A stretch of DNA of 64,000 nucleotides from an uncultured Dokdonia sp. (GTDB lineage: Bacteria; Bacteroidota; Bacteroidia; Flavobacteriales; Flavobacteriaceae): positions 1-64,000 of the forward strand of contig NZ_CALEMI010000044.1 in assembly GCF_937910895.1 (NCBI RefSeq), given 5' to 3'. Within the stretch, counting starts at the first letter, position 1, and every line of letters begins with the position of its first letter. The notes under the pieces were generated by a model that ran no database searches, was not told the origin of the DNA, and saw nothing but the letters and a program-made list of their open reading frames with translations. The position numbers and the translations under genes were made by a program. Shown one piece after another: positions 10,472 to 43,953 of the stretch.

Positions 10472-10507
10472 AAACCTATAGCTCGTAAGAACTATAGGTT
10501 TTTTTAG
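10472..10507 (+). terminator. Rho-independent terminator hairpin
   Basis: AAACCTATAG (10472-10481) pairs perfectly with CTATAGGTTT (10492-10501), and a T-run follows. It lies 270 bp beyond recN, so it may end a long recN 3' tail or a separate small transcript. Confidence 0.7.
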
Positions 10508-10597
10508 TGAAACTCAATCTTGAGAAGTCTGCAAGACGCACTCAAGATTGTAAGTTGAACTAATCCCGCTTTTTCAGCGGGATCTTTACACTATGAA
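10507..10597 (+). repeat. Structured GTGAAAC...GTTGAAC repeat, copy 1
   Basis: GTGAAAC is followed by a 10-bp stem (10515-10524 with 10541-10550). This encloses AA, an inner stem GTCT-GCA-AGAC and a 3-base gap. Then comes AGTTGAAC and a second hairpin, ATCCCGCT (10563-10570) with AGCGGGAT (10576-10583). Copy 2 starts 91 bp later and is almost identical. Confidence 0.85.
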
Positions 10598-10688
10598 CGT
10601 AAACTCAATCTTGCGAAGTCTGCAAGACGCACTCAAGATTGTAAGTTGAACTAATCCCGCTTTTTCAGCGGGATCTTTACATTATGAG
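10598..10688 (+). repeat. Structured repeat, copy 2 (tandem)
   Basis: This is a near-identical 91-bp tandem copy of 10507-10597. The first stem has one change (CTTGCG for CTTGAG on the left arm), and the second hairpin is the same. Confidence 0.85.
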
Positions 10689-10692
10689 CATA

Positions 10693-10775
10693 AGCGCTGT
10701 TTTAAAAAGTTGCGATGTAACACATTTAAAATGACTAGTTGAACCTGCCTTTGCATCAGGTAGGCTACTCCCGCT
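10693..10775 (+). repeat. Structured repeat, diverged copy 3
   Basis: The sequence differs but the architecture is kept: outer stem GTTTTAAA (10699-10706) with TTTAAAAT (10725-10732), 2 spacer bases, inner stem GTTGC-GAT-GTAAC (10709-10721), 3 spacer bases, then TAGTTGAAC. A different second hairpin follows, CTGCCT with AGGTAG. G-T pairs in both stems fit an RNA read from the plus strand. Confidence 0.65.
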
Positions 10776-10994
10776 TTTTCATTGGAAGTTATGATTTGAA
10801 TTTCATTTTAGATTAGAATACATCAATGCGCGCTTGAGAAATCAAAATAATATTCTGTTGAATACCTCCTGAGCTTGTTCCTTAGGATTATGTGTCATAG
10901 GCTCATATTCTCCAATTACTCGCTTATATATTAAAAAATAAACGCCGATATTTGTCCTTCAAAACGAAAATCAACTTTTAACCGATATTTAGAC

Positions 10995-11822
10995 ATGGGG
11001 TATAATTTACTGAAAGGAAAAAAAGGAATCATTTTTGGCGCATTAGACGAAAACTCAATTGCATGGAAAACCGCAGAGCGTGTCCACGAAGAAGGTGGAA
11101 CGTTTGTATTGACCAATGCACCGATCGCGATGCGTATGGGAACATTAAACAACCTAGCTGAAAAAACAGGTTCTGAAATCATTCCTGCCGATGCAACTTC
11201 TATAGAAGACCTTGAAAATTTAGTAGACAAAGCACAGGAAATTCTAGGCGGAAAACTAGATTTTGTATTACACTCTATCGGGATGTCTGTTAACGTGCGT
11301 AAAGGACGTCACTACACCGATCAAAATTATGCGTGGACTGAAAAAGGATGGGATGTCAGTGCGGTTTCTTTTCATAAAACCATGCAGACGTTATATAAGA
11401 AAGATGCCATGAATGAATGGGGAAGTATTGTTGGCTTGACCTATATGGCAGCACAACGTGTATTCCCTGACTATAACGATATGGCGGATAATAAAGCCTT
11501 TTTAGAATCGATTGCGCGTAGTTTTGGCTACCACTTTGGGAAAGAGAAAAATGTACGTGTGAATACGATTTCTCAATCACCTACACCGACTACGGCTGGA
11601 CAAGGTGTCAAAGGATTTGATGGCTTTATTGCTTTTGCCGAAAAGATGAGTCCGTTAGGAAATGCCACTGCAGATGACTGTGCCAATTATACGGTGACAT
11701 TATTCTCAGACTTGACCAAGCGTGTAACGATGCAAAACCTGTATAATGACGGAGGTTTCAGCAATACTGGCGTGAGCAACGAGGTGATGGATGCTTTTGT
11801 GAGGGATCAGGAGGAAAAATAA
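10995..11822 (+). CDS. fabI: Enoyl-[acyl-carrier-protein] reductase (NADH), FabI
   Basis: This short-chain dehydrogenase-type enzyme of 275 residues performs the last reduction of each fatty-acid elongation cycle, from enoyl-ACP to acyl-ACP with NAD(P)H. It has the FabI cofactor segment FGALDENSIAWKTA, the LDFVLHSIGM strand, and the active-site residues Tyr150 and Tyr160 with Lys167 in YMAAQRVFPDYNDMADNKAF. The Tyr-x6-Lys spacing separates FabI from ordinary SDRs. SQSPTPTTAGQGVKG aligns with the substrate loop. It is a stand-alone gene with the start at the conserved GYNLLKGKKG. Confidence 0.93.
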   Translation: MGYNLLKGKKGIIFGALDENSIAWKTAERVHEEGGTFVLTNAPIAMRMGTLNNLAEKTGSEIIPADATSIEDLENLVDKAQEILGGKLDFVLHSIGMSVNVRKGRHYTDQNYAWTEKGWDVSAVSFHKTMQTLYKKDAMNEWGSIVGLTYMAAQRVFPDYNDMADNKAFLESIARSFGYHFGKEKNVRVNTISQSPTPTTAGQGVKGFDGFIAFAEKMSPLGNATADDCANYTVTLFSDLTKRVTMQNLYNDGGFSNTGVSNEVMDAFVRDQEEK

Positions 11823-12313
11823 AAGCCCCCTAACCCCCGAAGGGGGAATGCTTACTCATTCTTTAAATAAAAACTATAATCTTGGCTTCCCTCCTAGGAA
11901 GGAGGGATTGAGGGAGGTGTGAAAAGTCTTTAACTTCAAAAGGGTAATAAGGAATATAAAACAAAAATAGAGTAGTGTTCTAAAATAGAGTACTACTCTA
12001 TTTTTATTCCCCTAACTCCAAAGGGGGTTTCTAAATTTAGTGTATACGCTTTCGCGAAAGCGTACATGCTATATATAAATTCCTTTTTTGAGGCTAGGAG
12101 CTTTCTCTCCCTTCCGTCTATATCTCGTGCCTCAATATATCCACCTTCCCTCGCTGAGGGAAGGAGCTTTTTGATTTTGTTTTTATAACATATTTAATTT
12201 CCTGTTTCGGGGGTTAGAGAGCTTTTTTACGCTTTCGCGAAAGCGTACACACATCTAAGAGAATTCCCCCTTTGGGGGTTAGGGGGCTTTAAGGGATTAC
12301 TTATCTTTGCGCT
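11823..12313. repeat. Non-coding stretch bounded by 28-bp inverted repeats
   Basis: The arms 11822-11849 (AAAGCCCCCTAACCCCC...) and 12263-12290 are inverted copies with one mismatch in 28. Between them lie further C- or G-rich palindromic pieces (around 11886 and 12143), partial copies of the arm (12009, 12208) and two exact GCTTTCGCGAAAGC palindromes (12048, 12231). No open reading frame is convincing. It looks like an accumulation of small flavobacterial repeats. Confidence 0.7.
12302..12309 (+). promoter_or_regulatory. -7 box TATCTTTG for the glycosyltransferase gene
   Basis: TATCTTTG matches the Bacteroidota -7 consensus TAnnTTTG and ends 4 bases before the ATG, which implies a nearly leaderless transcript. 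I did not find a -33 TTG at ideal spacing. Confidence 0.45.
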
Positions 12314-13315
12314 ATGCAATTATCCTATTCTTTTATCATTCCTGTGTATAATCGTCCCGACGAAATTAAGGAATTGTTGGACAGTTTTGTGAGTCAGGAT
12401 ACGACACTGCCGTTTGAAATTGTGATTATAGAAGATGGATCGTCATTGCCTAGTGATACAGTGATTGCCGAGTATACAGATCGGTTACAGATTACATATC
12501 TCTCAAAAGCCAACTCAGGACCTGGTGCTTCCCGAAATTATGGAATGGCGAGAGCCGCAGGGAACTATTTTATCATTTTAGATTCTGATTGCATTTTGCC
12601 GCCACAGTATGTACGTGTGATGAATGAAGCATTACAGGTTGAATATGTAGATTGTTTTGGCGGACCCGATGCGGCACATCCTTCGTTTTCTACCTTACAG
12701 AAAGCGATTAATTATAGCATGACTTCTTTTTTAACGACAGGCGGTATCCGGGGTGGTAAAAAACAAGTCAACGCTTTTCAGCCGCGAAGTTTTAATATGG
12801 GCTTATCAAAAAAAGGCTTTGAAGCCACTGAGGGGTTTGGAAAAATTCATCCAGGGGAAGATCCAGATTTGGTCTTACGATTATGGGAAAAAGGGTTTGA
12901 AACACGACTTCTTGAAGATGCGTATGTGTATCACAAACGTCGGATCTCTTGGTCCAAATTTTATAAGCAGGTCAATAAGTTTGGGATGGTACGTCCAATT
13001 CTTAATGATTGGCATCCGGGATCAGCAAAAATCACCTATTGGTTTCCTAGTGTATTTTTGATAGGTGTTCTTTTTAGCGTGCTGATGGCTGTCTTGGGCT
13101 GGTACTTTTTTATGTATCTAGTTATAGGGTATTTTGTTTTGATAGGCGTACACGCAACACTAACCACAAAAAGTATTTCTATTGGAGTGATGAGTATCGT
13201 AGCTACTGCCATACAATTTTATGGTTATGGAATCGGTTTTTTAAAATCGACGATAGCGATACAATGGCTAGGAAAGAAACCTCAAAAACGGTTTCCTCAT
13301 TTATTTTTTAAGTAA
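12314..13315 (+). CDS. Family 2 glycosyltransferase with C-terminal membrane segments
   Basis: The protein has 333 residues. The GT-A fold starts at once with SFIIPVYNRPDE, then IVIIEDGSS and the metal/nucleotide-binding ILDSDC. The acceptor region contains GEDPDLVLRLWEKGF. Residues ~240-305 form two or three membrane helices, so the enzyme sits on the inner membrane. It transfers a sugar from an activated donor to a lipid or polysaccharide acceptor. It is followed after 9 bp by the YbbR gene. Donor and acceptor cannot be read from the sequence. Confidence 0.85.
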   Translation: MQLSYSFIIPVYNRPDEIKELLDSFVSQDTTLPFEIVIIEDGSSLPSDTVIAEYTDRLQITYLSKANSGPGASRNYGMARAAGNYFIILDSDCILPPQYVRVMNEALQVEYVDCFGGPDAAHPSFSTLQKAINYSMTSFLTTGGIRGGKKQVNAFQPRSFNMGLSKKGFEATEGFGKIHPGEDPDLVLRLWEKGFETRLLEDAYVYHKRRISWSKFYKQVNKFGMVRPILNDWHPGSAKITYWFPSVFLIGVLFSVLMAVLGWYFFMYLVIGYFVLIGVHATLTTKSISIGVMSIVATAIQFYGYGIGFLKSTIAIQWLGKKPQKRFPHLFFK

Positions 13316-13324
13316 CTTCGAGAT

Positions 13325-14275
13325 ATGTCTATTTTTAAGAAAATCACATTAAGACGATCCCATGTAAGAGAATTTTTATTTTTTCTCTTGCTCACGACCA
13401 TCTTAGCCATTCTTAGTAAACTGTCTAAGGACTATACCAAAATATATAATCTTCCCGTCACCGTTGTTAACGTTCCTATAGATAGGGTAGTTAGTAACCT
13501 AGCGCCTGGAGAATTGGAAGTAACCACACGACTTTCCGGCTTTGCATTACTTTCTAATCAATTTTCAGATCTTGAGCTTGCGATCAATTTTAATCAATTG
13601 GAAAAAACGGGTAATACACAATATCAATACATTCCAGAAGGGCATCCATTAGAAATTGCCAAAACCATTTCTGGTGTTTCTGAAGTCACAGCTATAAGCC
13701 CAAAGCAAGTGAGTATACAAATAGACTCCTTAGCAAGCAAGGAGGTGCCTGTAAAGGCAACGGTTACCACAGACTATAAAACGGGATATGGCCCTAAAGG
13801 GATTCCAGTACTTGATCCCTCTATGGTTCGAATTGTTGGTCCTAAAGCGTATATTGATACGATTACAGCGGTAAAAGCAGTACCCAAAGACCTGACAGAA
13901 ATTTACGAAAACATAGCGTTACAATTAGCTATAGATTCTTTAGCACTTCATAAAGAAGTCAAGGTATCTTCGTATGTAATTACGTATTCTCAGGAAGTTG
14001 TAAAATTTACAGAAGGATCTTTTAGTATCCCTGTAAAACTGATCAACACGAAGGATACAGATGTCAAAATATTTCCTAAAACCGTTGATGTCTATTTTAC
14101 CGTGCCTATAGATCTTTATGAGTCTATTACTGCAAATGACTTTGAAGTGGTATGCGATTTTAATAAGCATAACGCACAAGATGATTTTATTGCATTGGAT
14201 ATTACGAAATCTCCCGAAGACGTAAAGAGTATTCGACTCGCCACTAAACAAATTAAATACATCGTAATTAACTAG
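13325..14275 (+). CDS. YbbR-like domain protein (CdaR family)
   Basis: The protein has 316 residues. One membrane helix near the N-terminus (EFLFFLLLTTILAILSKL) anchors a long extracytoplasmic beta-rich part with YbbR-type repeats (for example VTTRLSGFALLSN, VEVPVKATV-like SKEVPVKATV, and GPKAYIDTITAVKA). In Firmicutes the relative CdaR regulates the diadenylate cyclase CdaA; in Bacteroidota the gene commonly stands before coaE, as here. Whether it acts on c-di-AMP synthesis in this organism is not known. It is 9 bp after the glycosyltransferase and 153 bp before coaE. Confidence 0.78.
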   Translation: MSIFKKITLRRSHVREFLFFLLLTTILAILSKLSKDYTKIYNLPVTVVNVPIDRVVSNLAPGELEVTTRLSGFALLSNQFSDLELAINFNQLEKTGNTQYQYIPEGHPLEIAKTISGVSEVTAISPKQVSIQIDSLASKEVPVKATVTTDYKTGYGPKGIPVLDPSMVRIVGPKAYIDTITAVKAVPKDLTEIYENIALQLAIDSLALHKEVKVSSYVITYSQEVVKFTEGSFSIPVKLINTKDTDVKIFPKTVDVYFTVPIDLYESITANDFEVVCDFNKHNAQDDFIALDITKSPEDVKSIRLATKQIKYIVIN

Positions 14276-14428
14276 ATTTGTTTAATCATAAAGTTGGTTT
14301 ATAAGAGTATAAAGGGATTTTAGATGATAAAAGTTAAACAAAATGAGTTTTTATTACTAATTTTAACAACTGAGAACATAAGTACATCATATAGATAATA
14401 GTGTGTACTAAGATTAATTTGTTATAAA

Positions 14429-15022
14429 ATGATTGTAGGCCTAACGGGAGGTATAGGAAGCGGAAAAACAACAGTAGCAGGCTTTTTTAAAAAGCTGGGT
14501 ATTCCTGTATATATAGCAGATGATGAAGCAAAACGTCTTATGGAGATTTCTCCAGAGATACGTGTAGAAATTATCCAGCTACTGGGTGAAAATGCATATA
14601 TCAAAGAAATTCCCAATAAGAAATATATTGCAGATAAGGTATTTAAAGATCAACTATTATTAGAACAATTAAATGCTATTATACATCCTAGAGTAGCAGC
14701 GCATTTTAAAAACTGGTATAAGCAACAAGAGAGTCCTTATGTGATAAAAGAAGCCGCCATTCTTTTTGAAAATGGAGGGTATAAGCAATGTGATTTTATG
14801 ATTTTAGTGATGGCTCCATTAAAGATACGTATTGAAAGAGTAAAAAAGCGAGATCAAAGTTCTGAAGAAGAAATTTACAAGCGCATGAATGCACAATGGA
14901 GCGATTCAAAAAAAATAGCATTGTCAGATGTTATTATAGAAAATACGTTTCTAGACCAAACAAAAGAAAAAGTAGCACGCATTCATAATCACTTACTTCA
15001 CAGAATTAGCCGTAATTGGTAA
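14429..15022 (+). CDS. coaE: Dephospho-CoA kinase
   Basis: The protein has 197 residues, typical for the family. The P-loop is GLTGGIGSGKTT at residues 4-15, followed by YIADDEAKRL and IHPRV (the dephospho-CoA site), KEAAILFENGG, and a LID-like RVKKRDQSSEEE. It phosphorylates the 3' hydroxyl of dephospho-CoA, the last step of coenzyme A synthesis. It lies between ybbR and a two-component pair, a common flavobacterial order. The start is at the family's conserved MIVGLTGG. Confidence 0.93.
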   Translation: MIVGLTGGIGSGKTTVAGFFKKLGIPVYIADDEAKRLMEISPEIRVEIIQLLGENAYIKEIPNKKYIADKVFKDQLLLEQLNAIIHPRVAAHFKNWYKQQESPYVIKEAAILFENGGYKQCDFMILVMAPLKIRIERVKKRDQSSEEEIYKRMNAQWSDSKKIALSDVIIENTFLDQTKEKVARIHNHLLHRISRNW

Positions 15023-15083
15023 AAGCTGTTAACATTTGGTTAAATGGAAAGCCAGCTAAATGTTAAAATATTACTTTTGAGTA

Positions 15084-16655
15084 GTGAATAAAAAACTGTT
15101 TTACGCTTTAATTATCCTTATGAGCCTGTCTTTGATAGGGATTATATTTGTACAGGGATATTGGATATTGGAGAGTGTACGTGCAAAAAGAGATCAATTT
15201 TCTTTTAGTGCAAAAAGAGCGGTTATTAAAGTAGCCGAAAAAATACAAGAAAGAGAGTTTGAAGAATATTATCATACTGTCGATAAATTAATAGATAGTA
15301 TCGGAATCCCTGATGATCTTACCTTTGATGAATATTTCTTAATAAACGAAGATCCTATTACAAAAGATCTTTTTCTATACAGGAATGGTATTTTACAACA
15401 AGATTTTAAATTATCTGCACCTGCATTTGATAGAGACTTAGATAGCTTAGAATTTAAACGCTATTTCAATCTGAGTTCAAGACAGGTTATAAGTAGAGGT
15501 GGTGCACTAGATGGTACCATATCTAGCGGAGATAAAATTCAAGAGTTTTCTAAAATTGATGATTTTAGAAAGATGAGTTACAAAAATCTAATCAGTGATG
15601 TGTTGGAAAAGAATCCAATCCATAAACGTGTTTCTGTAGAGGAAATACAACGGGTAATGACACTAGAGCTTGTAGAAAGAGACTTAGAGACAGATTTTGA
15701 ATTTGGGATATTTGATAATGACTTATTAACCAAAGTTCGTTCAGAAAATTTTGAATTTGAAGGTTCGTCTCAATTTTATCAAGCACCTATTTTTATAGAT
15801 GAAAATGGTAAAACTGATTATTATCTGTATGCGGAATTTCCAGGAGAGAAGAAAATAGTCATTTCTTCTATCATAGGAATGATTGTGTTATCAGTGATAT
15901 TTACATTGATTATTGTGGTTGCCTATTCAAGTGCGTTACATCAATTAAATAAACAACGTCAAATCTCACAGATCAAGACGGATTTTATTAATAACATGAC
16001 GCACGAGTTTAAAACCCCTATTGCTACGATTAACCTAGCATTAGATTCGGTTAAAAATCCTAAGATATCAGGCGATCCAGAGAAGGTGGCTTATTATCAT
16101 AAGATGATACGAGAAGAAAATAAACGGATGCATGCACAGGTAGAAAATGTGTTGCGTATCTCAAAACTAGAAAAAAACGAACTTGATATTCGTAAAGAGC
16201 GATACAAGTTACACGATATTATAGAAGACGCAGTGGAACATGTAGCACTAATAGTCGAAGACCGTAAGGGGGCTATAACCATGCATCTCGATGCACCAAA
16301 ATCATCAATTTTGGCAAATGAATCACATTTTACCAATGTGATCGTTAATATGTTAGAGAATGCTGTGAAGTATTCTTCAGAGCCACCTAAAATAGATGTC
16401 TATACAGAGAATATAAAGAATTTTATTTTTGTTAAGATTCAAGATCAAGGGGATGGGATGTCTAAGACCGCACAACGTAAAGTTTTTGAAAAATTCTATC
16501 GGGAGCAGTCAGGAAATATTCATAACGTAAAAGGACACGGTTTAGGTTTGGCCTATGCCAGACAGATTGTAGAAGATCATCAAGGAGAAATCTTTGTAGA
16601 AAGTGAAAAGGGGAAAGGAAGCACATTCATCATTAAATTACCACTAATATCATAA
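15084..16655 (+). CDS. Sensor histidine kinase (RprX-like)
   Basis: The protein has 523 residues and starts at GTG. Membrane helices at ~7-27 and ~258-282 flank a ~230-residue periplasmic sensor domain. The HisKA box is NNMTHEFKTPIATI with the phospho-acceptor His307, the N box is NVIVNMLENAVKYS (Asn422, Asn426), and the G boxes are QDQGDGMS and GHGLGLAY. It phosphorylates the response regulator encoded 2 bp downstream. Sequence style and position resemble RprX of Bacteroides, whose pair with RprY has been linked to stress responses. The signal it senses is unknown. Confidence 0.88.
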   Translation: MNKKLFYALIILMSLSLIGIIFVQGYWILESVRAKRDQFSFSAKRAVIKVAEKIQEREFEEYYHTVDKLIDSIGIPDDLTFDEYFLINEDPITKDLFLYRNGILQQDFKLSAPAFDRDLDSLEFKRYFNLSSRQVISRGGALDGTISSGDKIQEFSKIDDFRKMSYKNLISDVLEKNPIHKRVSVEEIQRVMTLELVERDLETDFEFGIFDNDLLTKVRSENFEFEGSSQFYQAPIFIDENGKTDYYLYAEFPGEKKIVISSIIGMIVLSVIFTLIIVVAYSSALHQLNKQRQISQIKTDFINNMTHEFKTPIATINLALDSVKNPKISGDPEKVAYYHKMIREENKRMHAQVENVLRISKLEKNELDIRKERYKLHDIIEDAVEHVALIVEDRKGAITMHLDAPKSSILANESHFTNVIVNMLENAVKYSSEPPKIDVYTENIKNFIFVKIQDQGDGMSKTAQRKVFEKFYREQSGNIHNVKGHGLGLAYARQIVEDHQGEIFVESEKGKGSTFIIKLPLIS

Positions 16656-16657
16656 TT

Positions 16658-17365
16658 ATGGAAACAGAAAACAAAAAGATTTTACTCGTAGAAGATGATC
16701 CAAATTTTGGAACAGTCCTAAAGGATTATCTATCTATGAACGATTACAATGTCACACATGCCAAAAATGGGATGGAAGGCTTCGAAAAATTTAAAAAAGA
16801 CGATTTTGATCTTTGTATACTAGATGTCATGATGCCCTATAAAGATGGGTTTACACTAGCAAAAGAAATCCGTGAGAAAAATGCCGATGTGCCTATTATT
16901 TTCTTAACAGCAAAAGCACTTAAAGAAGATGTTCTTAAAGGATACAAAGTAGGAGCAGACGACTATCTCAACAAGCCTTTTGATAGTGAAGTGCTCTTAA
17001 TGAAAATCAAGGCAATTATCCAGCGTAAGAGTGTTGACTCTGTAGCAGATAGTAAACAATTTGAATTTGTGATCGGGAACTTTCACCTTAATTCAAAACT
17101 TCGTTTTTTAACCTACAAACAAGAAGAGCCTATCAAGCTTTCGCCAAAAGAAAACGAATTATTACGTATGCTAGCTTTACACGAGAATGATTTAATGCCT
17201 CGTGAATTGGCACTTACAAAAATATGGAGAGACGATAATTATTTTACATCACGTAGCATGGATGTATATATCGCAAAGCTTCGTAAATATCTTAAGAAAG
17301 ACGATACCGTGGAGATTTTAAATATTCACGGAGAAGGATTTAGATTGGTTGTGAAAACCATGTAA
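16658..17365 (+). CDS. OmpR-family response regulator (RprY-like)
   Basis: The protein has 235 residues. The receiver domain (residues 1-122) carries the acidic pair ED13D14, the phospho-acceptor Asp56 in LCILDVMMP, Thr in FLTAKA and Lys in YLNKPF. A winged-helix DNA-binding domain follows (PIKLSPKENELLRMLALHEN ... SRSMDVYIAKLRKYLK). It starts 2 bp after the kinase gene, so the two are one transcript. It is probably the transcriptional arm of the pair; the targets are unknown. Confidence 0.9.
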   Translation: METENKKILLVEDDPNFGTVLKDYLSMNDYNVTHAKNGMEGFEKFKKDDFDLCILDVMMPYKDGFTLAKEIREKNADVPIIFLTAKALKEDVLKGYKVGADDYLNKPFDSEVLLMKIKAIIQRKSVDSVADSKQFEFVIGNFHLNSKLRFLTYKQEEPIKLSPKENELLRMLALHENDLMPRELALTKIWRDDNYFTSRSMDVYIAKLRKYLKKDDTVEILNIHGEGFRLVVKTM

Positions 17366-17394
17366 ACGTACGACGGTATTAGTGAAGAAAGTAA

Positions 17395-17425
17395 AAAACG
17401 TCCTGTATCAGCGGGACGTTTTTTT
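17395..17425. terminator. Bidirectional terminator between the response regulator and miaA
   Basis: AAAACGTCC (17395-17403) pairs with GGACGTTTT (17414-17422), with an A-run before and a T-run after, so it can end both converging genes. Confidence 0.85.
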
Positions 17426-18316
17426 ATGTATAAAATCAGCGATTTCTTCAAAAGGCGTTTGATAATCAAACCACGTAATAGTCGGGTCTTTTCGGTACCA
17501 GGTTAATTGTCTTTTGGCAAAACGTCGGGTATTCGTTTTTATATTTTCGATGGCTTGTTCTAGCGTAATAGTTCCTTCAAAATATTCAAAAAGTTCTCGA
17601 TAGCCTACCGTTTGTAAAGCGTTTAACCGCTTTCGCGAAAGCAAACCCTGCACCTCTTCCACCAGTCCATTTTCAATCATTAAATCCACCCGTTTATTAA
17701 TCCGATCATAGATCACTTGCCGATCTGCCGAAAGTCCGATTTTAATAGTTTCAAATGGGCGTTTAGGTTTAGGCTTATCCAGAAATGAAGAAAAAGGTTT
17801 TCCCGATGAGAGGCAAACTTCCAAGGCACGCGTCACCCGTTGCTGATTTTGAATATCTACCCGTTTGTAATGCACAGGATCTTTTTCTTTGAGAAGTTCT
17901 TGTAATGCTTCAATGCCTTCTGTAGCGTAGAGCGTGTTAAGTTGTTCTCTAATCCCAGGAAGTACTTCAGGAAAATGGTCTAGTCCGTTTACCACAGCAT
18001 CTACATACATGCCAGAGCCGCCTACCATAGTCACATAAGGATGCTTTTCATTTAGCGTTTCGAGTAGGTGTATAGCTTCTCTTTCAAAATGTCCTACACT
18101 ATAGGTGTCTTCTATAGAGATATGTTGAATACAGTGATGCGGGGCAGCTGCAAGCTCTTTTGGATCAGGAACAGCAGTACCAATGGTCATTTCTTTATAG
18201 AATTGGCGTGAGTCTGCAGAAATAATTTCCGTTTGAAAATGTTGGGCTATTTTTATAGATGTAGCCGTTTTCCCTATGGCTGTGGGACCTACAATAGCAA
18301 AGAGGTATTTAGTCAT
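17408..18316 (-). CDS. miaA: tRNA dimethylallyltransferase
   Basis: This enzyme adds the dimethylallyl group to N6 of A37 in tRNAs that read codons starting with U. The P-loop is AIVGPTAIGKTATS near the N-terminus, followed by ISADSRQFYKEMTIGTAVP, the signature GGSGMYVDAVVNGL and, near the end, TRRFAKRQLTWYRKD. I place the start at MTKYLFAIVGP (18316) because family members begin just before the P-loop; an open frame continues upstream to 18364 without similarity. This start overlaps the channel gene's stop by 8 bp (ATGACTAA), so they are probably co-transcribed. An iterated palindrome lies inside at 17629. Confidence 0.93.
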   Translation of the reverse strand: MTKYLFAIVGPTAIGKTATSIKIAQHFQTEIISADSRQFYKEMTIGTAVPDPKELAAAPHHCIQHISIEDTYSVGHFEREAIHLLETLNEKHPYVTMVGGSGMYVDAVVNGLDHFPEVLPGIREQLNTLYATEGIEALQELLKEKDPVHYKRVDIQNQQRVTRALEVCLSSGKPFSSFLDKPKPKRPFETIKIGLSADRQVIYDRINKRVDLMIENGLVEEVQGLLSRKRLNALQTVGYRELFEYFEGTITLEQAIENIKTNTRRFAKRQLTWYRKDPTITWFDYQTPFEEIADFIHKKTSR

Positions 18317-36759: not shown

Positions 36760-36942
36760 ATGGCCAAGAGAGGGAACAGAGTACAGGTAATCTTAGAGTG
36801 CACAGAGCACAAAGCGACTGGAGAGCCAGGAACTTCAAGATACATCACAACAAAGAATAAAAAGAATACGCCAGATCGTATGGAGTTAAAGAAATTTAAC
36901 GCTGTATTAAAGCGTATGACCGTTCATAAAGAAATTAAATAA
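36760..36942 (+). CDS. rpmG: 50S ribosomal protein L33
   Basis: This small basic protein of 60 residues reads [20 protein letters not shown] and ends [17 protein letters not shown], the L33 pattern. The usual paired Cys are reduced to one (Cys13), so this is a zinc-independent form. It follows L28 by 20 bp and precedes the DUF4295 gene by 9 bp. Confidence 0.96.
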
Positions 36943-36951
36943 GTTTAAGAC

Positions 36952-37104
36952 ATGGCAAAGAAATCAGTAGCATCGTTACAGACAGGATCTAAGCGTTTGA
37001 CAAAAGCGATCAAAATGGTGAAATCTCCAAAATCAGGAGCTTACACTTTTGTTGAAGCCGTTATGGTACCAGAAAAAGTAAATGACTTCTTAGCTAAGAA
37101 ATAA
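36952..37104 (+). CDS. DUF4295 family protein, 50 residues
   Basis: A very short gene read as MAKKSVASLQTGSKRLTKAI ... VMVPEKVNDFLAKK. It is basic and lies 9 bp after L33. The family is restricted to Bacteroidota and is nearly always found after L28 and L33, so a ribosome-linked role is likely, though unproven. It is followed by a strong terminator at 37126. In many relatives ftsY comes next; here it does not. Confidence 0.9.
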   Translation: MAKKSVASLQTGSKRLTKAIKMVKSPKSGAYTFVEAVMVPEKVNDFLAKK

Positions 37105-37125
37105 ATTTTACTTGTATACAATATT

Positions 37126-37157
37126 AAAACCCATTTTCGCAAGAAGATGGGTTTTTT
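37126..37157 (+). terminator. Terminator of the rpmB-rpmG-DUF4295 operon
   Basis: AAAACCCAT (37126-37134) pairs with ATGGGTTTT (37147-37155), followed by further T. Confidence 0.9.
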
Positions 37158-37268
37158 GTGTTTTTTTTTGAAAACAAAGTATATCATCTCTGACGTTAAA
37201 AAAGAAGATTTATATCTTATAGTTGTACCACATCTATATCTCTATTGTAAGTCAGTTAAATAAAACCT

Positions 37269-37982
37269 ATGAGTAATAGAATTTTAGTACTACTTCTTAT
37301 TAGTTTGTCAATCAATTCTTGTGGGATTTTCAAAACGCATCACAAGAGTGAACTGATTGATTTTGAAAATAATTCAATAACCAAGGAATCTTTAAAACTA
37401 GATGGGTATTATTATACAGAATTCGAAATTGAATATGGAAAAAATTCGCCGCCTTTTATTGACGATTACATAAGAAAAACAGGAATAAATAACATAAAAT
37501 ATCTTTCTGTGTTTTTTATTTATGAAGATGGTTTTGCAATTAACATAGGGGGAATCAATGGACTTTCACGCTATTATTGTGCTGAAAAAGAAAATTATGA
37601 AAACACTTATGAAAGTGCACATAAAACAATTGAATTAATGCTTCAAACTCAAAACTCTGAAGAAAAGAGAACCAAAAGAATTTGTGGCTTTAAACCAAAT
37701 GACATAGGAAATAAAGGCTTAGTTAAAATTAACAGCGATAGTATTAAAATACAGTTTTACCGAATTGAAATGCAAAACCCAACTAAAGATTCTTTTAATT
37801 CAGCTTATTTATACGAAGCTAATGGAATTATAAAATCTGACTCAAGTTTTGTACTAAAAACTGAAACTGAATTTAGAACTAACATGACAATAACTAAAAA
37901 TAAGCTATTTCAATTTAGGCAAACTGAACAGAAACCAACTATTGAAAATTATTTTATAAAGAATAAAAATCAATTTCAATAG
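37269..37982 (+). CDS. Hypothetical lipoprotein
   Basis: The protein has 237 residues. Residues 1-18 form a lipoprotein signal ending in SLSINSC, so it is lipid-anchored. The rest has no recognised domain; it is polar, with YYYTEFEIEYGKNSPPFIDD and IKYLSVFFIYEDGFAINIGG suggesting a beta-rich fold. It is more AT-rich than its neighbours and occupies the place where ftsY is often found after the L33 operon, so it may be an insertion. No function is proposed. Confidence 0.6.
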   Translation: MSNRILVLLLISLSINSCGIFKTHHKSELIDFENNSITKESLKLDGYYYTEFEIEYGKNSPPFIDDYIRKTGINNIKYLSVFFIYEDGFAINIGGINGLSRYYCAEKENYENTYESAHKTIELMLQTQNSEEKRTKRICGFKPNDIGNKGLVKINSDSIKIQFYRIEMQNPTKDSFNSAYLYEANGIIKSDSSFVLKTETEFRTNMTITKNKLFQFRQTEQKPTIENYFIKNKNQFQ

Positions 37983-38023
37983 TAGCTTATTACTGCATAG
38001 AATTATTAAAGGTTATTTGCTCA

Positions 38024-38512
38024 TCAATCCCTGTTCCACTCCACAGCATCCCCTATTTCTATGACCCACTCCTCAGCGAGTCCGCCGTTGATTTCTAAGA
38101 CATATTTGGCAGGGACTTGTGATGGTAGTAAAGAAAGATCCATAGGCTTTGCATTTTCAGCAAAAGAAACCACTTTCTTATTAGCATCTATAAAAATAAG
38201 GTCCAACGGAATCAAGGTATTTTTCATATGAAAATTCTGTACACGTTCTTCCTCTAGTATAAATAACATTCCTTGTAAGACTTCCATACTTGATCTGTGC
38301 ATCAATCCTGTCTCACGCTCATAATCGTCTTCAGCGAACTCGATAGCTATTTTTTTAATAAGAGTTCCATCTGCTTTGGTTAATGTAAGGGTGCCTTCTT
38401 TGGTGAAGGCAAAGTCAGTAGGAGTAATGGTTTTCTCTTCTTTTGTTTCCTTACAGCTATACACGCTCATAGAGATGAGGAGGGCAAGTACTATTTTTAA
38501 TACAATCTTCAT
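38024..38512 (-). CDS. DUF192 family lipoprotein
   Basis: The protein has 162 residues. A lipoprotein signal ends in SVYSC (Cys20). The DUF192 domain follows: IKKIAIEFAEDDYERETGLM, GMLFILEEERVQNFHMKNTL, IPLDLIFIDANKKVV and YVLEINGGLAEEW. The family is a small beta barrel of unknown role, usually exported. It starts 3 bp after the lgt gene's stop and is likely co-transcribed with it. Confidence 0.86.
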   Translation of the reverse strand: MKIVLKIVLALLISMSVYSCKETKEEKTITPTDFAFTKEGTLTLTKADGTLIKKIAIEFAEDDYERETGLMHRSSMEVLQGMLFILEEERVQNFHMKNTLIPLDLIFIDANKKVVSFAENAKPMDLSLLPSQVPAKYVLEINGGLAEEWVIEIGDAVEWNRD

Positions 38513-38515
38513 GGC

Positions 38516-39442
38516 TTAAGCTTCTTTTTTTGTCAAAGAAGCATAGACGAGATAGGCACCGATAAGAATAAAAGGAATACTTAAAATTTGACCTGTATTC
38601 AAACCTAGAATCCAATCTTCACGTCCTTCTACTTGTTCTCGCTTAAAGTTTTCTACAATCAAACGTACACCCATTAATAGAAGTAAGAACGTACCAAATA
38701 GCAATCCTATTTTTTCTGATGCTTTTGTTTTCCAATAAAGATATAAGATAATTAAAAAGATAATCCCATAGCCAACAGCTTCCATAAGTTGTCCAGGATA
38801 GCGATACGGAATCTCTGCTATTTTTTCTGCAAATTGCGAATCTTCTGTGAGTGCTTGGTATGCTTTTCTAGGATTACGTATATTGGTAAGAGACATCGCA
38901 CGTCCTTCACTAATTCCGTCTTGTATAAATTGAACTCCTATAGCACTATCTGTTACTTTTCCTACCATTTCTGAATTAAAAAAGTTTCCTACTCTTACAA
39001 ACATAGCGCCTAGTGATACGGGGATAGCGACACGATCTAATACCCAAAAGAATGGTTTCTTCACTACTTTTTTACTGTAGCGATACATTGCATACATTCC
39101 TACAATAAAAGCTCCGTGGCTAGCTAATCCTCTAAATCCTGTAAACTCAAATTCAGGAACAAATTTAAAGGGTAAAAATACTGATAGCGGATCTTCCCAT
39201 AATAATTCTGTTTGATAGAACAAGACATGTCCTAATCGTGCTCCTAAGAGAATAGAAACCACGGCGTATATAAAAATAGAATCTAATTTTTCTAAAGGAA
39301 TCTTTTCGTTGATGTACACTTTTTTCATCAGGTAATATCCTAATGAAAAAGCAACAACAAACATCAGGCTGTAAAAATGAATGGTAATAAAACCAAGGTC
39401 TATTCCCGTAAGTGGATTCCAAGTAAATTTAAGTGCAATCAT
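38516..39442 (-). CDS. lgt: Prolipoprotein diacylglyceryl transferase
   Basis: The protein has 308 residues with seven or so membrane helices. It transfers diacylglycerol from phosphatidylglycerol to the lipobox Cys of exported prolipoproteins, the first step of lipoprotein maturation. The family signature is FRGLASHGAFIVGMYAMYRY with the essential His, ALGMAFVRVGNF-like SLGAMFVRVGNFFNSEMVG, and YPGQLMEAVGYG. The substrates include many of the lipoproteins in this window. It is followed by the DUF192 gene. Confidence 0.95.
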   Translation of the reverse strand: MIALKFTWNPLTGIDLGFITIHFYSLMFVVAFSLGYYLMKKVYINEKIPLEKLDSIFIYAVVSILLGARLGHVLFYQTELLWEDPLSVFLPFKFVPEFEFTGFRGLASHGAFIVGMYAMYRYSKKVVKKPFFWVLDRVAIPVSLGAMFVRVGNFFNSEMVGKVTDSAIGVQFIQDGISEGRAMSLTNIRNPRKAYQALTEDSQFAEKIAEIPYRYPGQLMEAVGYGIIFLIILYLYWKTKASEKIGLLFGTFLLLLMGVRLIVENFKREQVEGREDWILGLNTGQILSIPFILIGAYLVYASLTKKEA

Positions 39443-39645
39443 AATGGTTGTTAGCGTTCAGTTTATGAAATATAGCGTATAAAAAGATACTACATTTAGA
39501 GTTTGGTACTGAACTATTTTTTTGATTTATTTTTTTCAATTCTTAAGGCTAAATTAAAAATTTGGCGGTCATAGAAAATGAACATGAACCTTTCGATTTA
39601 GCACTGATTAGCTATATTTTACACACCGTGTTATACCATAGTTAT

Positions 39646-40377
39646 TTAAAAGTCATTTAATATTCTTTCGTATGATAATATTCTAGTTGTTAATCTATCT
39701 ATTTCATGCATTGTGTAATTCTTTCCTTTTACATGTCTAATATGCGCTATAATATTATCAATTTCGCTTTCTTTCTTTACAATTATATATAGAATTTGAT
39801 TTGCATTAAAATACAATCTTTCATTTTTCAATTTTGAATTACAACTTCTTTTTTTTGCGGGAGTATCATATTGGTTTAAATTATGCCATGCAAAAAAATC
39901 TTCATTAAAAGGAGGTACATATCTCCATTCTCTTTCATCTGCAAATCGGTATTTTTCTATTGTCTTTCCCTTACGAAATAAAGGGCCCTCATAAACCTTA
40001 GAATATCTAATAATATTGGTTTTATTCACTCGCTCTTCTCTTGGAATATCCATATCCCAAGAAACTTCCCTCATATTGTCAATCAAGTCAGCTGCAAATT
40101 TTGAAGAACTATTTAAGTAAACAACTGGGTTTAATCCTTTTTCCACTGCCCATTCTTTGCTAAGCCCTATTCCATAATGACCGTATTTTTCAATATGTTC
40201 TGTTATTTCAGATATTTTTATATCACAAAATGAAACCATAGGAATTGCAACTTCTACTGGCCTAGTGCTATGATTAAGCTTTTCTACACAATATTTCAAT
40301 TTAAAATTATCGCTTAATATTCCTTCAAGTCCTTTTTTTGAAGTAAAGTGAAAAACAGTTGATGGAGAAATACTCAT
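39646..40377 (-). CDS. AbiGi-like abortive infection antitoxin, without partner
   Basis: The protein has 243 residues. The start (STVFHFTSKKGLEGILSDNF, KYCVEKL), then VEVAIPMVSFCDIKISEITE, HIEKYGHYGIGLSKEWAVEK, LNPVVYLNS and DEREWRYVPPF follow the pattern of AbiGi, described as the antitoxin half of the type IV AbiG phage-exclusion pair. The His/Phe/Thr opening and the DEREWR segment are typical. The usual toxin AbiGii is absent: the neighbours are lgt and yidD. It may act alone, have a distant partner, or be a domain of broader use. The flanking DNA is AT-rich. Confidence 0.7.
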   Translation of the reverse strand: MSISPSTVFHFTSKKGLEGILSDNFKLKYCVEKLNHSTRPVEVAIPMVSFCDIKISEITEHIEKYGHYGIGLSKEWAVEKGLNPVVYLNSSSKFAADLIDNMREVSWDMDIPREERVNKTNIIRYSKVYEGPLFRKGKTIEKYRFADEREWRYVPPFNEDFFAWHNLNQYDTPAKKRSCNSKLKNERLYFNANQILYIIVKKESEIDNIIAHIRHVKGKNYTMHEIDRLTTRILSYERILNDF

Positions 40378-40627
40378 GTTCTTGCTTTAATTTATCTTAA
40401 AAATCAACCTACTTTGCAGGTGGTTATGTTCTTTTGGCTTTGCCTGTACTGCACAATTTTTTGAATCCGATTATATACTTGAGACAGTTAATTCAGTAAA
40501 TAAAAGTTGCCAAGGTTGCCTTTATAGAGGCTTTCCAAAGCCACCTTCTAAGAAGGTGTGATTTTTACTTACGTATAACACATAAGTAAAGATAACAAAG
40601 TCAGTTTTTCCTAACCGTATTCTGACC

Positions 40628-40879
40628 TTATTTTTTAGCATCTTCTTTTGGAGGTACAGGGTCATAGCCTTGCCTGCCCCATGGATGACAAGAAAAAATA
40701 CGTTTTATAGATAAGCCACCACCTTTGATGAGTCCGTGGGTTTGTAACGCCTCTTGGGTATAATGCGAACAGGTAGGTGTAAATCTACAGGTAGAGGGTG
40801 TCCAAGAGGAGATCAACTTTTGGTATAACCAAATAATACCTAAAAAAGGTGCAATAGCTATTTTTTTAAAGGAAGCCAT
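40628..40879 (-). CDS. yidD: Membrane protein insertion efficiency factor YidD
   Basis: This small protein of 83 residues has an amphipathic N-terminal helix and the family signature [21 protein letters not shown]-like [27 protein letters not shown] and [20 protein letters not shown]. It helps YidC/Sec insert membrane proteins. It overlaps the last base of cysS, so the two are co-transcribed, as in many Bacteroidota. Confidence 0.93.
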
Positions 40880-42363
40880 TAGTTCACAGTAAAGGTGGTG
40901 CCTTCACGACCATCTTTCAGCTGAATTCCTAAGGCTAATAACTCATCACGAATCTTGTCGCTAGTGGCAAAGTCTTTATTCTCACGTGCTTCTTTACGTA
41001 ATTTGATCAATAACTCAACAGCGCCAGAGAGTTTGGAATCGTCCGCTTTCGCGAAAGCGTCCCCATCTTCAAGACCCAACACATCAAAAACAAAGGCATT
41101 CATCGTCTGTGTAAGCAGTTTCAGATCGTCTGCTGTGATGGTTGCTTTCTCGTCTTTAATTAGGTGTATTTGCTTTACAGCTTCAAAAAGTTGCGCAATT
41201 AGAATAGGACTGTTAAAGTCATCATTCATTGCATCATAACAAGATTGTTTCCAAGCAGGAACATCCATCGTACTCGTTGTATCAGTCGGTAATGACTTCA
41301 TCACTTTCAACGCATCCATCAATCTACCGAAGCCTTTTTCACTAGCGATCAAAGCATCATTACTAAAGTCAAGAATACTTCTGTAATTGGCTTGTAGCAC
41401 AAAGAAACGAGCAGCACTCGGTGCAAACCCTTTACTTAAATGCGGACTATCGCCAGTAAAGATTTCGCCTGGGTTAATACTATTGCCTGTACTTTTTGAC
41501 ATCTTTTGTCCATTAAGCGTAAGCATATTGGCATGCATCCAATAGCGTACGGGAACAGTGCCTATAGCGGCTTCGTTTTGTGCAATCTCACACTCGTGAT
41601 GTGGGAATTTTAAATCCATACCACCACCGTGGATATCAAATTGATCTCCTAGATATTTGGTACTCATCGCTGTACATTCTAGATGCCAACCTGGAAAACC
41701 ATCTCCCCAAGGGCTAGGCCAGCGCATAATATGTTCTGGTCCTGCTTTTTTCCAAAGCGCAAAATCCTGAGGGTTTTCTTTTTCATCTTGTGCGTTGAGC
41801 GCACGAGTATTGGCGATCATATCTTCCAGCTTACGACCACTTAATTTGCCGTACTCGTGATCTTTATTGAAGGTAACGACATCAAAATAGACAGAGCCGT
41901 TTTTTTCATAAGCATAGCCGTTTTCTAGAATTTTTTTAATAATCTCAATTTGCTCTATGATATGTCCCGTTGCTGTCGGCTCAATACTAGGCGGCAGAAA
42001 ATTAAAAGTATTTAAGATATTATGGAAGTCAACAGTATATTGTTGAACCACTTCCATAGGTTCTATTTTTTCAAGACGTGCTTTTTTGGCAATCTTATCT
42101 TCACCTTGATCGCCATCATCGGTAAGGTGACCAGCATCGGTGATATTACGGACATAACGTACTTTATATCCTAAATGCTTTAGGTATCTAAAAATCATAT
42201 CAAAGCTCATAAACGTACGTACATTCCCTAAGTGTACATTACTATATACAGTAGGACCACAAACATACATTCCAATATGTCCTTCGAGGAGGGGAATAAA
42301 ATCTTCTTTCTTTCCTGTAAGAGAGTTGTATATTTTTAAGGATTGCTCTTTATATAATGCCAT
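40879..42363 (-). CDS. cysS: Cysteine--tRNA ligase
   Basis: This class I synthetase of 494 residues loads Cys onto tRNA-Cys. It has the HIGH-type motif in [20 protein letters not shown], a zinc site with [15 protein letters not shown] and [12 protein letters not shown], and the KMSKS motif in [14 protein letters not shown]-terminal helical domain (DALIT-like) ends with [14 protein letters not shown]. The iterated palindrome at 41045 encodes AFAKA near the C-terminus. It overlaps yidD by one base. The upstream region 42364-42795 contains its promoter. Confidence 0.96.
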
Positions 42364-42397
42364 TCGTTGGTCTTTTAAATGATAGTGAATTTTATTA

Positions 42398-42480
42398 GTG
42401 AAACTCGATTTTGAGAAGTCTGTAAGACGACCTCAAAATTGTAAGTTGAACTAATCCCGCTTTTTGGCGGGACTTTGGTT
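42398..42480 (+). repeat. Structured GTGAAAC...GTTGAAC repeat, copy 4
   Basis: The first stem is GATTTTGAG with CTCAAAATT. Relative to copy 1 a C-G pair has become T-A on both arms, and one pair is G-T. The inner stem is GTCT-GTA-AGAC, and the 3-base gap and AGTTGAAC are kept. The second hairpin is TCCCGC with GCGGGA. Confidence 0.8.
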
Positions 42481-42528
42481 TAATATTTTTTTATTGTTAA
42501 CGAAGATAGTACGCTTTGTGTCAAAATC

Positions 42529-42558
42529 AAAAGCGATAACAGAGAGTTATCGCTTTTT
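42529..42558. terminator. Terminator hairpin after repeat copy 4
   Basis: AAAAGCGATAAC (42529-42540) pairs exactly with GTTATCGCTTTT (42546-42557), followed by T. No annotated gene ends here, which suggests that a short transcript containing the repeat ends at this point. Confidence 0.8.
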
Positions 42559-42795
42559 TGAAGAATATCTATTCTTTTTATACTATAAAGTTTCTGTAGG
42601 GTACTATAAGACTATGTATTTATGAATTTCTTTTTGACGATAAAAGTGATGTTCAAGTATCAGAATGGCAGTATTTTACGGTTTTTCCGCACATTTTATT
42701 TTTTTTGGGTAATGAAATAAAACACCTGTTACTATGAAGTAGAGGCGGAATCCGAAAAGCCTAAGATAGAGTAGGAAACAAGTAACCATTAAGTC

Positions 42796-43815
42796 ATGAA
42801 AAAACTATTAACACTACTACTCATGAGTGCACTATTGTTTGCATGTAGTAAAGAAGATGCTGTTGAAGAACTTCAACAAGAAACCGATTCATTAAACCTA
42901 ACCCAAGAAAGAAATACGGATGCTGAATCGTCTGCTGAAATGTTAGAATTTGGATCTTTTGACGAACTAGAAGCTTTTATAAGTCAACTCCAAGAGTCTG
43001 ATGCAGATTTATTAGACGAGGCAATGAGTATGTCTGCCGAGAGTGGACATCATTCGTTATTGTATATCTATGATGCAGATTTAGCTACATTAGATGAATT
43101 AGGAATTCGTATGGAAGATGTTGCCGTGGTGCACTCCTATGATGATATGCTACATCTTTTATTAAACCAAAATGGAGAGGTAAAAGTCGCTAATCAAATT
43201 TATAGAATAGATGGAGAGTTTGTGTATCAATATGCAGAGGGATCTAGTAATCAGATTTCAACGTTCCTAGCAAATTATAATGCAGGTGAGATTCGTTTAG
43301 AGAAAGGCGATTCAGAGCAAATCAGTGAAGAATTGTTAGTGTATCGTCATAATAACGATGAAGATATTACTGGAGATTTAGATAGAGAAGCTACCGAAAA
43401 TGAAAGAGGGGTAGCGGCTTATGATTATTTTTCTGGAGGACAATACCGTATGAGATCTAGACAATTTAATGGATACTGGTGGTTTTACAGTAACATAGGT
43501 TTCTCTACTAAAGTGCAACAAAGAAAACGGTATTGGTTTTTTGGATGGCGTTATTACTGGAGTACAGTACAGAGATATAACCGTTTAAACTATGAAGTTT
43601 CTTACACAGGAAATGGCGTAGGATATCCTTCGTATGTCAATAATGCGCAAGGCGCCAAAGATTGTTTTTGTAATATAGCTTCGAGGACTATAGATTGGTC
43701 TGTAGGATTCCCTGCGGCTCCTTTTTATTATACCATGAACTCAGGTCAAAGTAATCATTGGGCACATGAGTTTAGTGTCTCTCCAAATACTGTGAGTAGG
43801 ACGTTTAATTATTAA
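42796..43815 (+). CDS. Hypothetical lipoprotein with acidic N-terminal part
   Basis: The protein has 339 residues. The lipoprotein signal is MKKLLTLLLMSALLFACSKE (Cys17). A long acidic stretch (~18-75, many Glu/Asp/Ser) follows. The middle contains HSLLYIYDADLATLDELGIR and a YRIDGEFVYQY segment. The end (~215-339) is rich in Tyr, Trp and Arg (FNGYWWFYSNIGFSTKVQQR, YWFFGWRYYWSTVQRY), which suggests a beta-rich binding surface. I do not recognise a family. It sits between two same-direction copies of the structured repeat (42398 and 43874). Confidence 0.6.
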   Translation: MKKLLTLLLMSALLFACSKEDAVEELQQETDSLNLTQERNTDAESSAEMLEFGSFDELEAFISQLQESDADLLDEAMSMSAESGHHSLLYIYDADLATLDELGIRMEDVAVVHSYDDMLHLLLNQNGEVKVANQIYRIDGEFVYQYAEGSSNQISTFLANYNAGEIRLEKGDSEQISEELLVYRHNNDEDITGDLDREATENERGVAAYDYFSGGQYRMRSRQFNGYWWFYSNIGFSTKVQQRKRYWFFGWRYYWSTVQRYNRLNYEVSYTGNGVGYPSYVNNAQGAKDCFCNIASRTIDWSVGFPAAPFYYTMNSGQSNHWAHEFSVSPNTVSRTFNY

Positions 43816-43838
43816 TACATTGTTTCTAGTATAAACAG

Positions 43839-43869
43839 AAAGATCGTCTAGTAATAGACGATCTTTTTT
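43839..43869 (+). terminator. Terminator of the 42796 lipoprotein gene
   Basis: AAAGATCGTCTA (43839-43850) pairs with TAGACGATCTTT (43855-43866), followed by T. Confidence 0.92.
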
Positions 43870-43873
43870 GTTA

Positions 43874-43953
43874 GTGAAACGTTGTTTTTCAAAGTCCAAA
43901 AGACGCATACAAAATGGGTAGTTGAACTAATCCCGCTGAAAAGCGGGATTTAT
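43874..43953 (+). repeat. Structured repeat, diverged copy 5
   Basis: It starts GTGAAAC, keeps the inner GTC...GAC stem, the GCA gap, TAGTTGAAC and the second hairpin (ATCCCGCT with AGCGGGAT). The outer stem is weakened to T-A and G-T pairs (TTGTTTT with AAAATGG). Confidence 0.65.

Follow-up and report, generated by a model that had tools for sequence, protein, structure and literature searches.

Among described mobile elements, the palindrome-associated transposable elements (PATEs) of Haloquadratum walsbyi and the IS200/IS605 insertion sequences come closest to the repeats analysed here. PATEs are described as showing strain-specific insertions in a strain in which all IS200-type genes are disrupted (PMC3119063), IS200/IS605 elements are described as sharing a lagging-strand orientation (PMC5371812, PMC6006769), and a Bacteroidetes subclass of TnpA-REP (subclass 2.6) is described as flanked by 'atypical secondary structures' (PMC6006769). 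The present analysis concerns a family of short structured repeats, five copies of which occur in a window of 64,000 nucleotides (the whole stretch analysed) from an uncultured Dokdonia sp. (Flavobacteriaceae; assembly GCF_937910895.1, contig NZ_CALEMI010000044.1, positions 1 to 64,000 of the forward strand) and had been pointed out in an initial annotation made from the sequence alone. These repeats are probably a small, PATE-like, non-autonomous element of the IS200/IS605 type, whose folded single strand would be mobilised in trans at replication forks. The hairpin family is absent from the libraries searched, and its proposed kind (non-autonomous IS200/IS605-type) is already known.

A hairpin family with covarying stems

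In the following, G000 denotes the genome of the window, other G numbers denote other genomes and L numbers individual loci; the window copies are numbered 1 to 5 (Table 1). A covariance model (R1) was built from 23 copies, including copies 1, 4 and 5 and excluding copies 2 and 3 (32 copies were found in the first stretches, of which 29 were aligned and 23 kept), and it matched all five repeats where the initial annotation had placed them. In hairpin 1, the feet TTAGT-GA-AAC and GTT-GA-ACTAA are conserved, and a GA/GA internal loop parts the TTAGT/ACTAA pairing from AAC/GTT. Inward of the feet follow a 2-nt bulge, a variable stem of approximately 10-11 bp, an AA/GCA internal loop and a small apical hairpin, and hairpin 2 (ATCCCGC/GCGGGAT) stands directly 3' of hairpin 1. 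The outer stem of the first description is therefore present but was drawn too short, missing the TTAGT/ACTAA pairing beyond the 2x2 GA/GA loop and the 2-nt bulge on the 3' side. The second hairpin follows hairpin 1 in the family as described, except that a nested palindrome (10744-10764) displaces it in copy 3, and the sequence GTGAAAC, thought to be common to all five copies, occurs only in copies 1, 4 and 5 (CGTAAAC in copy 2 and CATAAGC in copy 3). When folded as DNA, copies 1 and 4 formed the expected structure and scored better than all 200 shuffles (copy 1, z -5.9); for copy 5 (143 nt with the right end), one of 200 shuffles was equally good and hairpin 1 was missing from the best fold.

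The reported covariation of the stems is real and goes beyond chance in three tests. The 23-copy alignment contains nine pairs altered on both sides, and no shuffle out of 500 reached four of the five measures, the fifth ('further pair types') being reached by 100 of them. In an alignment of 100 distinct rows from named loci, which was fitted to the structure, 26 of 28 pairs were altered on both sides and none of 500 shuffles reached the observed value on any measure. Without model-based alignment, 60 distinct 5' arms paired with their own 3' arms at 8.57 of 10 positions, compared with 6.57 for shuffled partners (maximum 7.02 in 500 shuffles). The hairpin fold is thus under selection.

The strong covariation, with G-U pairs in the sense strand, would also be expected of a regulatory or stabilising RNA at transcript 3' ends that has spread by its usefulness, and both the intergenic placement of the copies, often behind genes, and their occurrence at shared positions beside the same gene neighbours (five loci in at least three genera) would agree with this. 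Such a role is nevertheless improbable, since copies often follow a terminator expected to end the upstream transcript, relatives possess empty sites, copies decay and hold nested insertions, and orientation tracks replication (52 of 59 regions) better than gene direction (62-66%); overall, nothing observed favours a regulatory RNA. Moreover, the window copies and 14 other loci matched no Rfam family at the gathering score. The best weak match was OrzO-P (29.5 bits, 60 needed), and the Flavo-1 motif, which had been brought up as a candidate, was not among the matches at E up to 10.

Further homologs exist. The motif AGTTGAACTAATCCCGC, with up to two mismatches, gave 59 matches in G000 and one for a reversed control, and R1, by which 150 of 4190 candidates were scored, found 82 matches in G000 at E up to 0.01 (four were not fetched), with relatives mostly in Flavobacteriaceae. 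A survey of 59 genomes with stricter filters detected R1 matches in 12 (own included), distributed very unevenly (39 in G015, which belongs to the same genus, 13 in G030 and 11 in G011), and 11 of 17 other same-genus genomes had none. A pattern of the two feet separated by 30-60 free bases identified at least 117 stretches in named genomes. Judged by title, most of the 80 examined belong to Flavobacteriaceae (among them Arenibacter, Gelidibacter, Kordia and Aquimarina), and one record each comes from a Bacteroidales, a Draconibacterium, a Vicingus and a Chlorobiota member. An order-wide survey of low sensitivity, in which 15 candidates per genome were scored and G000 itself showed 15 of its 82 matches, detected the family, at E up to 1e-4, in 4 of 296 genomes, G000 being one of them. 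No match to the hairpin family was found in the plasmid, phage and viral collections searched, and no description of the element in open-licence literature searched by title or abstract start, which falls short of showing its absence from print.

No common neighbour protein emerged around the fetched copies, where the largest cluster of similar open reading frames (ORFs) had four members. At the 80 named loci, the neighbours in common were for the most part genes of shared sites, and an ABC-ATPase-like protein formed the widest cluster (eight loci). In two groups of copies (L130, L135, L172, L178 and L197; L138, L169 and L173), different genera or species carry a copy at the same place beside the same neighbouring genes, with different stems. 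Same-place copies with different stems may reflect either recurrent targeting or old copies with compensatory change.

Empty sites, ends and targets

Comparison with same-genus genomes supports the mobility of the element. Copy 4 is missing from G007, G015, G011 and G014, and its site in G007 reads AATTTTATT/GATAACG, compared with AATTTTATT/AGTGAAAC ... TTTTATT/GTTAACG in the window (slashes mark junctions). Site C126:103770 is empty in G007, G011 and G014; in G015 an element of another stem subtype lies at the same terminator, suggesting either a target hot spot or conversion. At C126:111683, the element is present in G000, G011 and G015, and the site is empty in G007, G014 and G017. At the site of copies 1-3, G007 and G011 keep the upstream terminator with no recognisable element, and G015 has a decayed trace of one (by eye). 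On the basis of these empty sites, the hairpin element appears to be mobile. The terminator ascribed to copy 4 (a hairpin at about 42528-42560) is not part of it, because all four genomes lacking the copy have this hairpin at the empty site. Copies 4 and 5 do flank a lipoprotein gene, as had been noted, in an arrangement that looks incidental: a block at about 42570-44040 (the lipoprotein gene, a DUF805b motif and copy 5) is absent from G007, G011 and G015 separately from copy 4.

The main form of the element is 5'-AGTGAAAC-hairpin 1-GTTGAACTAAT-hairpin 2-(optional extra hairpins)-GGTTTAATACC-TTTTATT-3', with palindromes near both ends, namely hairpin 1 on the 5' side and, ahead of the 3' end, hairpin 2 together with the right-end hairpins. 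At the 3' end, GGTTTAATACC runs into TTTTATT (or a close variant of it), beyond which the sequence is unique; this end is located at about +80 in the short form or at +133 to +184 in the long form with extra hairpins; a GGTTTAATACC-like motif (up to two changes) was present in 73 of 152 distinct copies. Among the 49 copies whose terminal motif a script could read, the right 7-mer was exactly TTTTATT in 19 and at most one base off in 31, and the left-flank 7-mer in 16 and 36, respectively. Left and right 7-mers were identical in eight; 500 shuffled pairings gave 6.5 on average and at most 12. As the flanking motifs match no better within than between copies, no target duplication is seen: the same motif stands on both sides without being duplicated at each insertion.

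A small, non-coding, multi-copy element inserted precisely could also be a miniature inverted-repeat transposable element (MITE) moved by a DDE transposase. There is very little chance of this, given that there is no general target duplication and that inspection of the ends by eye revealed no convincing terminal inverted repeat between AGTGAAAC and GGTTTAATACC-TTTTATT.

Insertion occurs 3' of TTATT or of T-runs, often in the T-tract of a terminator. Where the start could be recognised and the flank was long enough (67 of 78 copies in G000 and 72 of 87 named copies), the left flank was T-rich (at least six T in the last eight bases) in 42 and 47, respectively. A terminator-like hairpin (at least six pairs, at least three G-C ends) lay just upstream of 17/67 and 24/72 copies. 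Four controls each gave 1-6 such cases, and shuffled sequence gave 1.5 to 2.1. The copies are intergenic, none of the 67 and one of the 72 lying within a long ORF.

Group IIC introns insert at such terminator sites, and targets of this kind (terminator T-tracts, TTATT) raise the question of a structured RNA that spread by retrotransposition, with the reverse transcriptase of a group IIC intron or a similar enzyme inserting it beside terminators. 5'-truncated tandem copies exist, and a replication-strand bias would fit as well. This origin is quite improbable, considering that RVT_1 has no match in G015 (39 copies), G011 (11 copies), G023 or G017 and shows no association with the element (4 of 8 copy-bearing versus 6 of 11 copy-free genomes), that no intron domain was recognised, and that the right end of the element matches a Y1 element.

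Tandem arrays provide a further view of the ends. In the array of L144, units are joined as TTTTATT/AGTGAAAC, which would follow if the right end can serve as a target in its own right. Such arrays, together with a variable stem, conserved feet and bulged bases, are also reminiscent of a folded single-stranded DNA site for a tyrosine recombinase, like the attC sites of integrons, whose consensus boxes are R'' RYYYAAC and R' GTTRRRY. The foot GTTGAAC fits R', but its partner box GTGAAAC does not fit RYYYAAC, and no protein family was common to more than a few copy-adjacent loci (no search aimed at integrases was made), making an attC-like site very improbable.

Replication-strand orientation and the Y1 transposase link

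The relation to replication was examined through third-position GC skew, a difference between genes pointing along and against the element indicating a fixed relation to the replication strand. Among the 80 named loci, 59 regions had enough data on both strands, and in 52 of these the genes along the element were more G-rich (p 1.4e-9; half-difference of skew 0.098 +- 0.012). The relation was kept where the upstream gene points the opposite way (0.84 of 19), frames set by genes gave lower agreement (0.66 of 56 and 0.62 of 55), and intergenic target motifs had no strand bias (TTTATT 142:129, TTTTATT 56:63, TTTTTT 286:249). In a second set of 15-19 kb regions, in which copies within one region are not independent, 54 of 75 copies were positive, compared with 36 co-oriented with the local gene majority (by genome, G015 20/27, G000 19/27, G011 7/8, G030 5/7, G023 2/4 and G012 1/2). 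Element orientation therefore follows the replication strand. In the single-contig genome G216, where 20 places were examined, skew was positive at 7 of 7 (0.33 to 1.7 Mb) and negative at 9 of 11 (1.93 to 4.18 Mb). The leading strand, which is usually G-rich, was assigned by this composition; the written strand of the element lies on the G-rich strand and would thus be the lagging-strand template, if the leading strand is G-rich as usual.

A candidate enzyme is indicated by the right end. Three Gelidibacter copies (L120, L128 and L171) are nearly identical, with the same two ends and different flanks, and end in TGATACCTCGTACCCTTGGGTCGAGGTTGTTCATT (one base changed in L120; identity in L128 by eye). 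The last 35 nt of L171 are identical to the right end of an IS200-type element, L384, in an Algibacter genome (35/35, E 1.4e-12). The shared stretch stops at the same base in L384, whose Y1 transposase gene has TGA as its stop codon there, and related stretches (76-89%) lie shortly 3' of Y1 matches in L298 and L300-L303. Right-end hairpins of one Dokdonia and two Arenibacter copies, compared with a Y1 end, scored 35, 37 and 25 (shuffle maxima 26, 24 and 21), a homology weaker than that of the Gelidibacter copies. The only Y1_Tnp match of the window genome, L029 (G000:C161:104961-105320), is an IS200-type element with hairpin ends, a right end GTTCATT and a right-end stretch of the same plan as that of L384, and no copy of the hairpin family adjoins it. 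L120 also contains a piece resembling an IS left end (19 of 21 bases shared with L029). Judged from these shared ends, at least some copies appear to be composed of a core plus transposase-less IS200 ends that move as one unit. Among the 80 named loci, which had been chosen for the core, there were 17 matches to the right end, and none was a module without the core; 5'-truncated remnants occur in G000.

The preferred explanation, movement in trans by an IS200/IS605-type enzyme, may be outlined as follows. A replication fork would expose the lagging-strand template, on which the element strand could fold, and a Y1 (HUH) transposase from an IS200-type element elsewhere would recognise the near-terminal hairpins, with predicted cuts after TTATT on the left and after TTTTATT or TTCATT on the right. 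The single strand would then be pasted 3' of another T-rich site in the exposed template, leaving the target unduplicated, and T-tracts of intrinsic terminators would be favoured as targets. The right end carries the target motif again, so that new copies would also land behind old ones and produce the tandem arrays, and the stems would covary because the shape of the hairpin, rather than its sequence, has to be kept. We infer that Y1 enzymes mobilise all subfamilies, that the intermediate is single-stranded DNA and that hairpin 1 serves as the left recognition end.

Several observations weigh against this explanation. Hairpin 1 was found as a left end at none of 60 Y1 loci (not all Y1 matches), most of them examined with about 1.5 kb on either side; R1 gave nothing at E up to 1 in the first 30 and one 17-bit match (E 0.42) in 30 more. 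Hairpin 1 also begins at the cleavage point, unlike in IS608, where the hairpin is spaced about 20 nt inside it. No Y1_Tnp match was found in G015 (39 copies), G011 (11) or G017 (1), and Y1 occurred in 6 of 9 copy-bearing versus 3 of 10 copy-free genomes. Of the 19 genomes of named copies, 16 had Y1 (many matches weak, and no copy-free genomes compared) and 3 did not. As for orientation, the mean for G030 was zero, with five of seven copies positive, a small-locus test in G000 was null (0.005 +- 0.026, n=15) before larger regions gave 19/27, and the copies of G216 were five with, two against and one unclear. Finally, left-flank repeats of at least nine bases recur in downstream DNA for 10 of 139 copies versus 3.4 expected from mismatched pairs (one is the L144 array and several are T-rich). 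Local alignment of flanks scored at least 26 in 6 of 148 copies versus 1.0 expected, the top being the Arenibacter copy L161 (around 4076), which lies between a 34-nt direct duplication with one mismatch. This duplication begins and ends with TTTATT and is unpredicted by the proposed mechanism. With regard to missing enzymes, fresh IS605-type insertions are described in Haloquadratum although all IS200-type genes are disrupted (PMC3119063).

The Y1 transposase, taken as a co-occurring gene, showed no clean association with copies. The Bacteroidetes TnpA subclass 2.6 was considered as a partner and rejected, and two inspected genes of the YIHNNP type (L389 and L380) carry other flanking hairpins; the pattern search for this subclass missed several loci.

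It is possible, though unlikely, that hairpin 1 belongs, as left end or recombination site, to a distinct single-stranded DNA mobility system of Bacteroidota, which acquired IS200 right ends in some lineages. Such a system would read the GA/GA and AA/GCA loops rather than the sequence and target terminator T-tracts at the fork. Of the two possibilities left by the initial annotation, an unnamed RNA or a mobile hairpin element, the empty sites, the Y1-type right end and the replication-strand orientation speak for mobile single-stranded DNA, and the Rfam results and the placement at terminators speak against RNA.

Features of the window and comparison with known systems

The copies of the window and the terminators associated with them are collected in Table 1.

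Table 1. Copies of the hairpin element and associated features in the window
Feature	Positions	Strand	Basis
Intrinsic terminator hairpin (AACCTATAG / CTATAGGTT) and T-run of upstream gene; target of copy 1	10473..10505	+	Sequence
Copy 1: hairpin 1 and hairpin 2 (ATCCCGC/GCGGGAT)	10501..10585	+	R1, 100.3 bits, E 1.1e-16
Copy 2, in tandem with copy 1; 5' foot altered (CGTAAAC)	10591..10676	+	R1, 69.6 bits
Copy 3, decayed; other stem subtype; 5' foot lost	10690..10764	+	R1, 34.0 bits, E 0.006
Small palindrome CCTGCC...GGTAGG inside copy 3, between GTTGAA and second hairpin	10744..10764	+	Sequence
Copy 4, short form; 99-base net insertion	42397..42495	+	Empty site in G007; absent from G015, G011 and G014
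Terminator hairpin (AAGATCGTCT / AGACGATCTT) and T-run immediately 5' of copy 5	43840..43869	+	Sequence
Copy 5, long form	43873..44022	+	R1, 88.3 bits at 43868-43951; family right-end pattern; end by eye

The element proper of copy 1 begins at A10506, and its hairpin 1 has the conserved feet and the variable stem. Copy 4, matched by R1 at 42392-42475 (95.7 bits, E 9.6e-16), is bounded by direct TTTTATT motifs at 42390-42396 and 42489-42495. Copy 5 contains, in order, hairpin 1, hairpin 2, an IS200-like right-end hairpin (TCGACTCTTGGGTCGA), another hairpin and the end GGAGTTTAAGATCTTTATT (by eye).

Small palindromes of the type CCTGCC..GGCAGG are nested inside copies (window 10744-10764; L066), and nesting like that of copy 3 was also observed in G000:C73. 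A second small palindrome, CTGAACTTGTTTCAG, lies in the hairpin 2 loop of copies at L150, L170 and L199, lengthening the stem. Among other features, the Rfam DUF805b RNA (RF02914) was detected at 42742-42777 (47.2 bits, cut-off 35.6), just 5' of the lipoprotein-like gene at 42796-43815. The stretches 44043-44079 (with ACGCTTTCGCGAAAGCGT) and about 9584-9626 give short matches at many places in most same-genus genomes and represent other dispersed repeats.

With this family, the Bacteroidota gain a multi-copy, gene-free element that probably moves as single-strand DNA; its ends are defined, empty sites exist for it, and it has a candidate partner enzyme. Covariation is usually taken as a sign of functional RNA; here the folding of mobile DNA explains it better, implying that covariation-based pipelines for RNA discovery can wrongly report elements of this sort as regulatory RNAs. 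Moreover, the proposed link between single-strand transposition and the T-tracts of intrinsic terminators would make target choice at forks testable.

In comparison with known systems, the pneumococcal BOX element is likewise described as modular, hairpin-rich, dispersed, non-coding and judged parasitic (PMC3049150); it differs in its ISSpn2-like terminal inverted repeats, tandem boxB, sequence and host. Repetitive extragenic palindromes (REP/REPIN) with TnpA-REP (also named RAYT, REP-associated tyrosine transposase) are similarly described as dispersed intergenic hairpins tied to Y1 enzymes (PMC6006769), whereas the hairpin element has no GTAG tag at its foot and R1 matches were not near the examined Y1 loci. 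The likeness to IS200/IS605 elements, as described for IS608 and ISDra2 (PMC6006769, PMC5371812), extends to end hairpins, a target beside the left end and lagging-strand orientation, and the 35-nt right end of Gelidibacter copies is identical to that of a Y1 element. The hairpin element differs from them in lacking a transposase gene, in having hairpin 1 directly at the cleavage point and in a left end unmatched to any Y1 element examined. From PATEs it is distinguished by its Bacteroidota host, its preference for terminator T-tracts, its strong stem covariation and its hairpin 1, whose GA/GA and AA/GCA loops were on no autonomous element found. With PATEs, as these are described in Haloquadratum walsbyi (PMC3119063), it shares the lack of a transposase, of terminal inverted repeats and of target duplication, as well as near-terminal palindromes, a conserved terminal oligonucleotide acting as target, an end (here the right one) related to the IS200/IS605 type and nested insertions by other small repeats.

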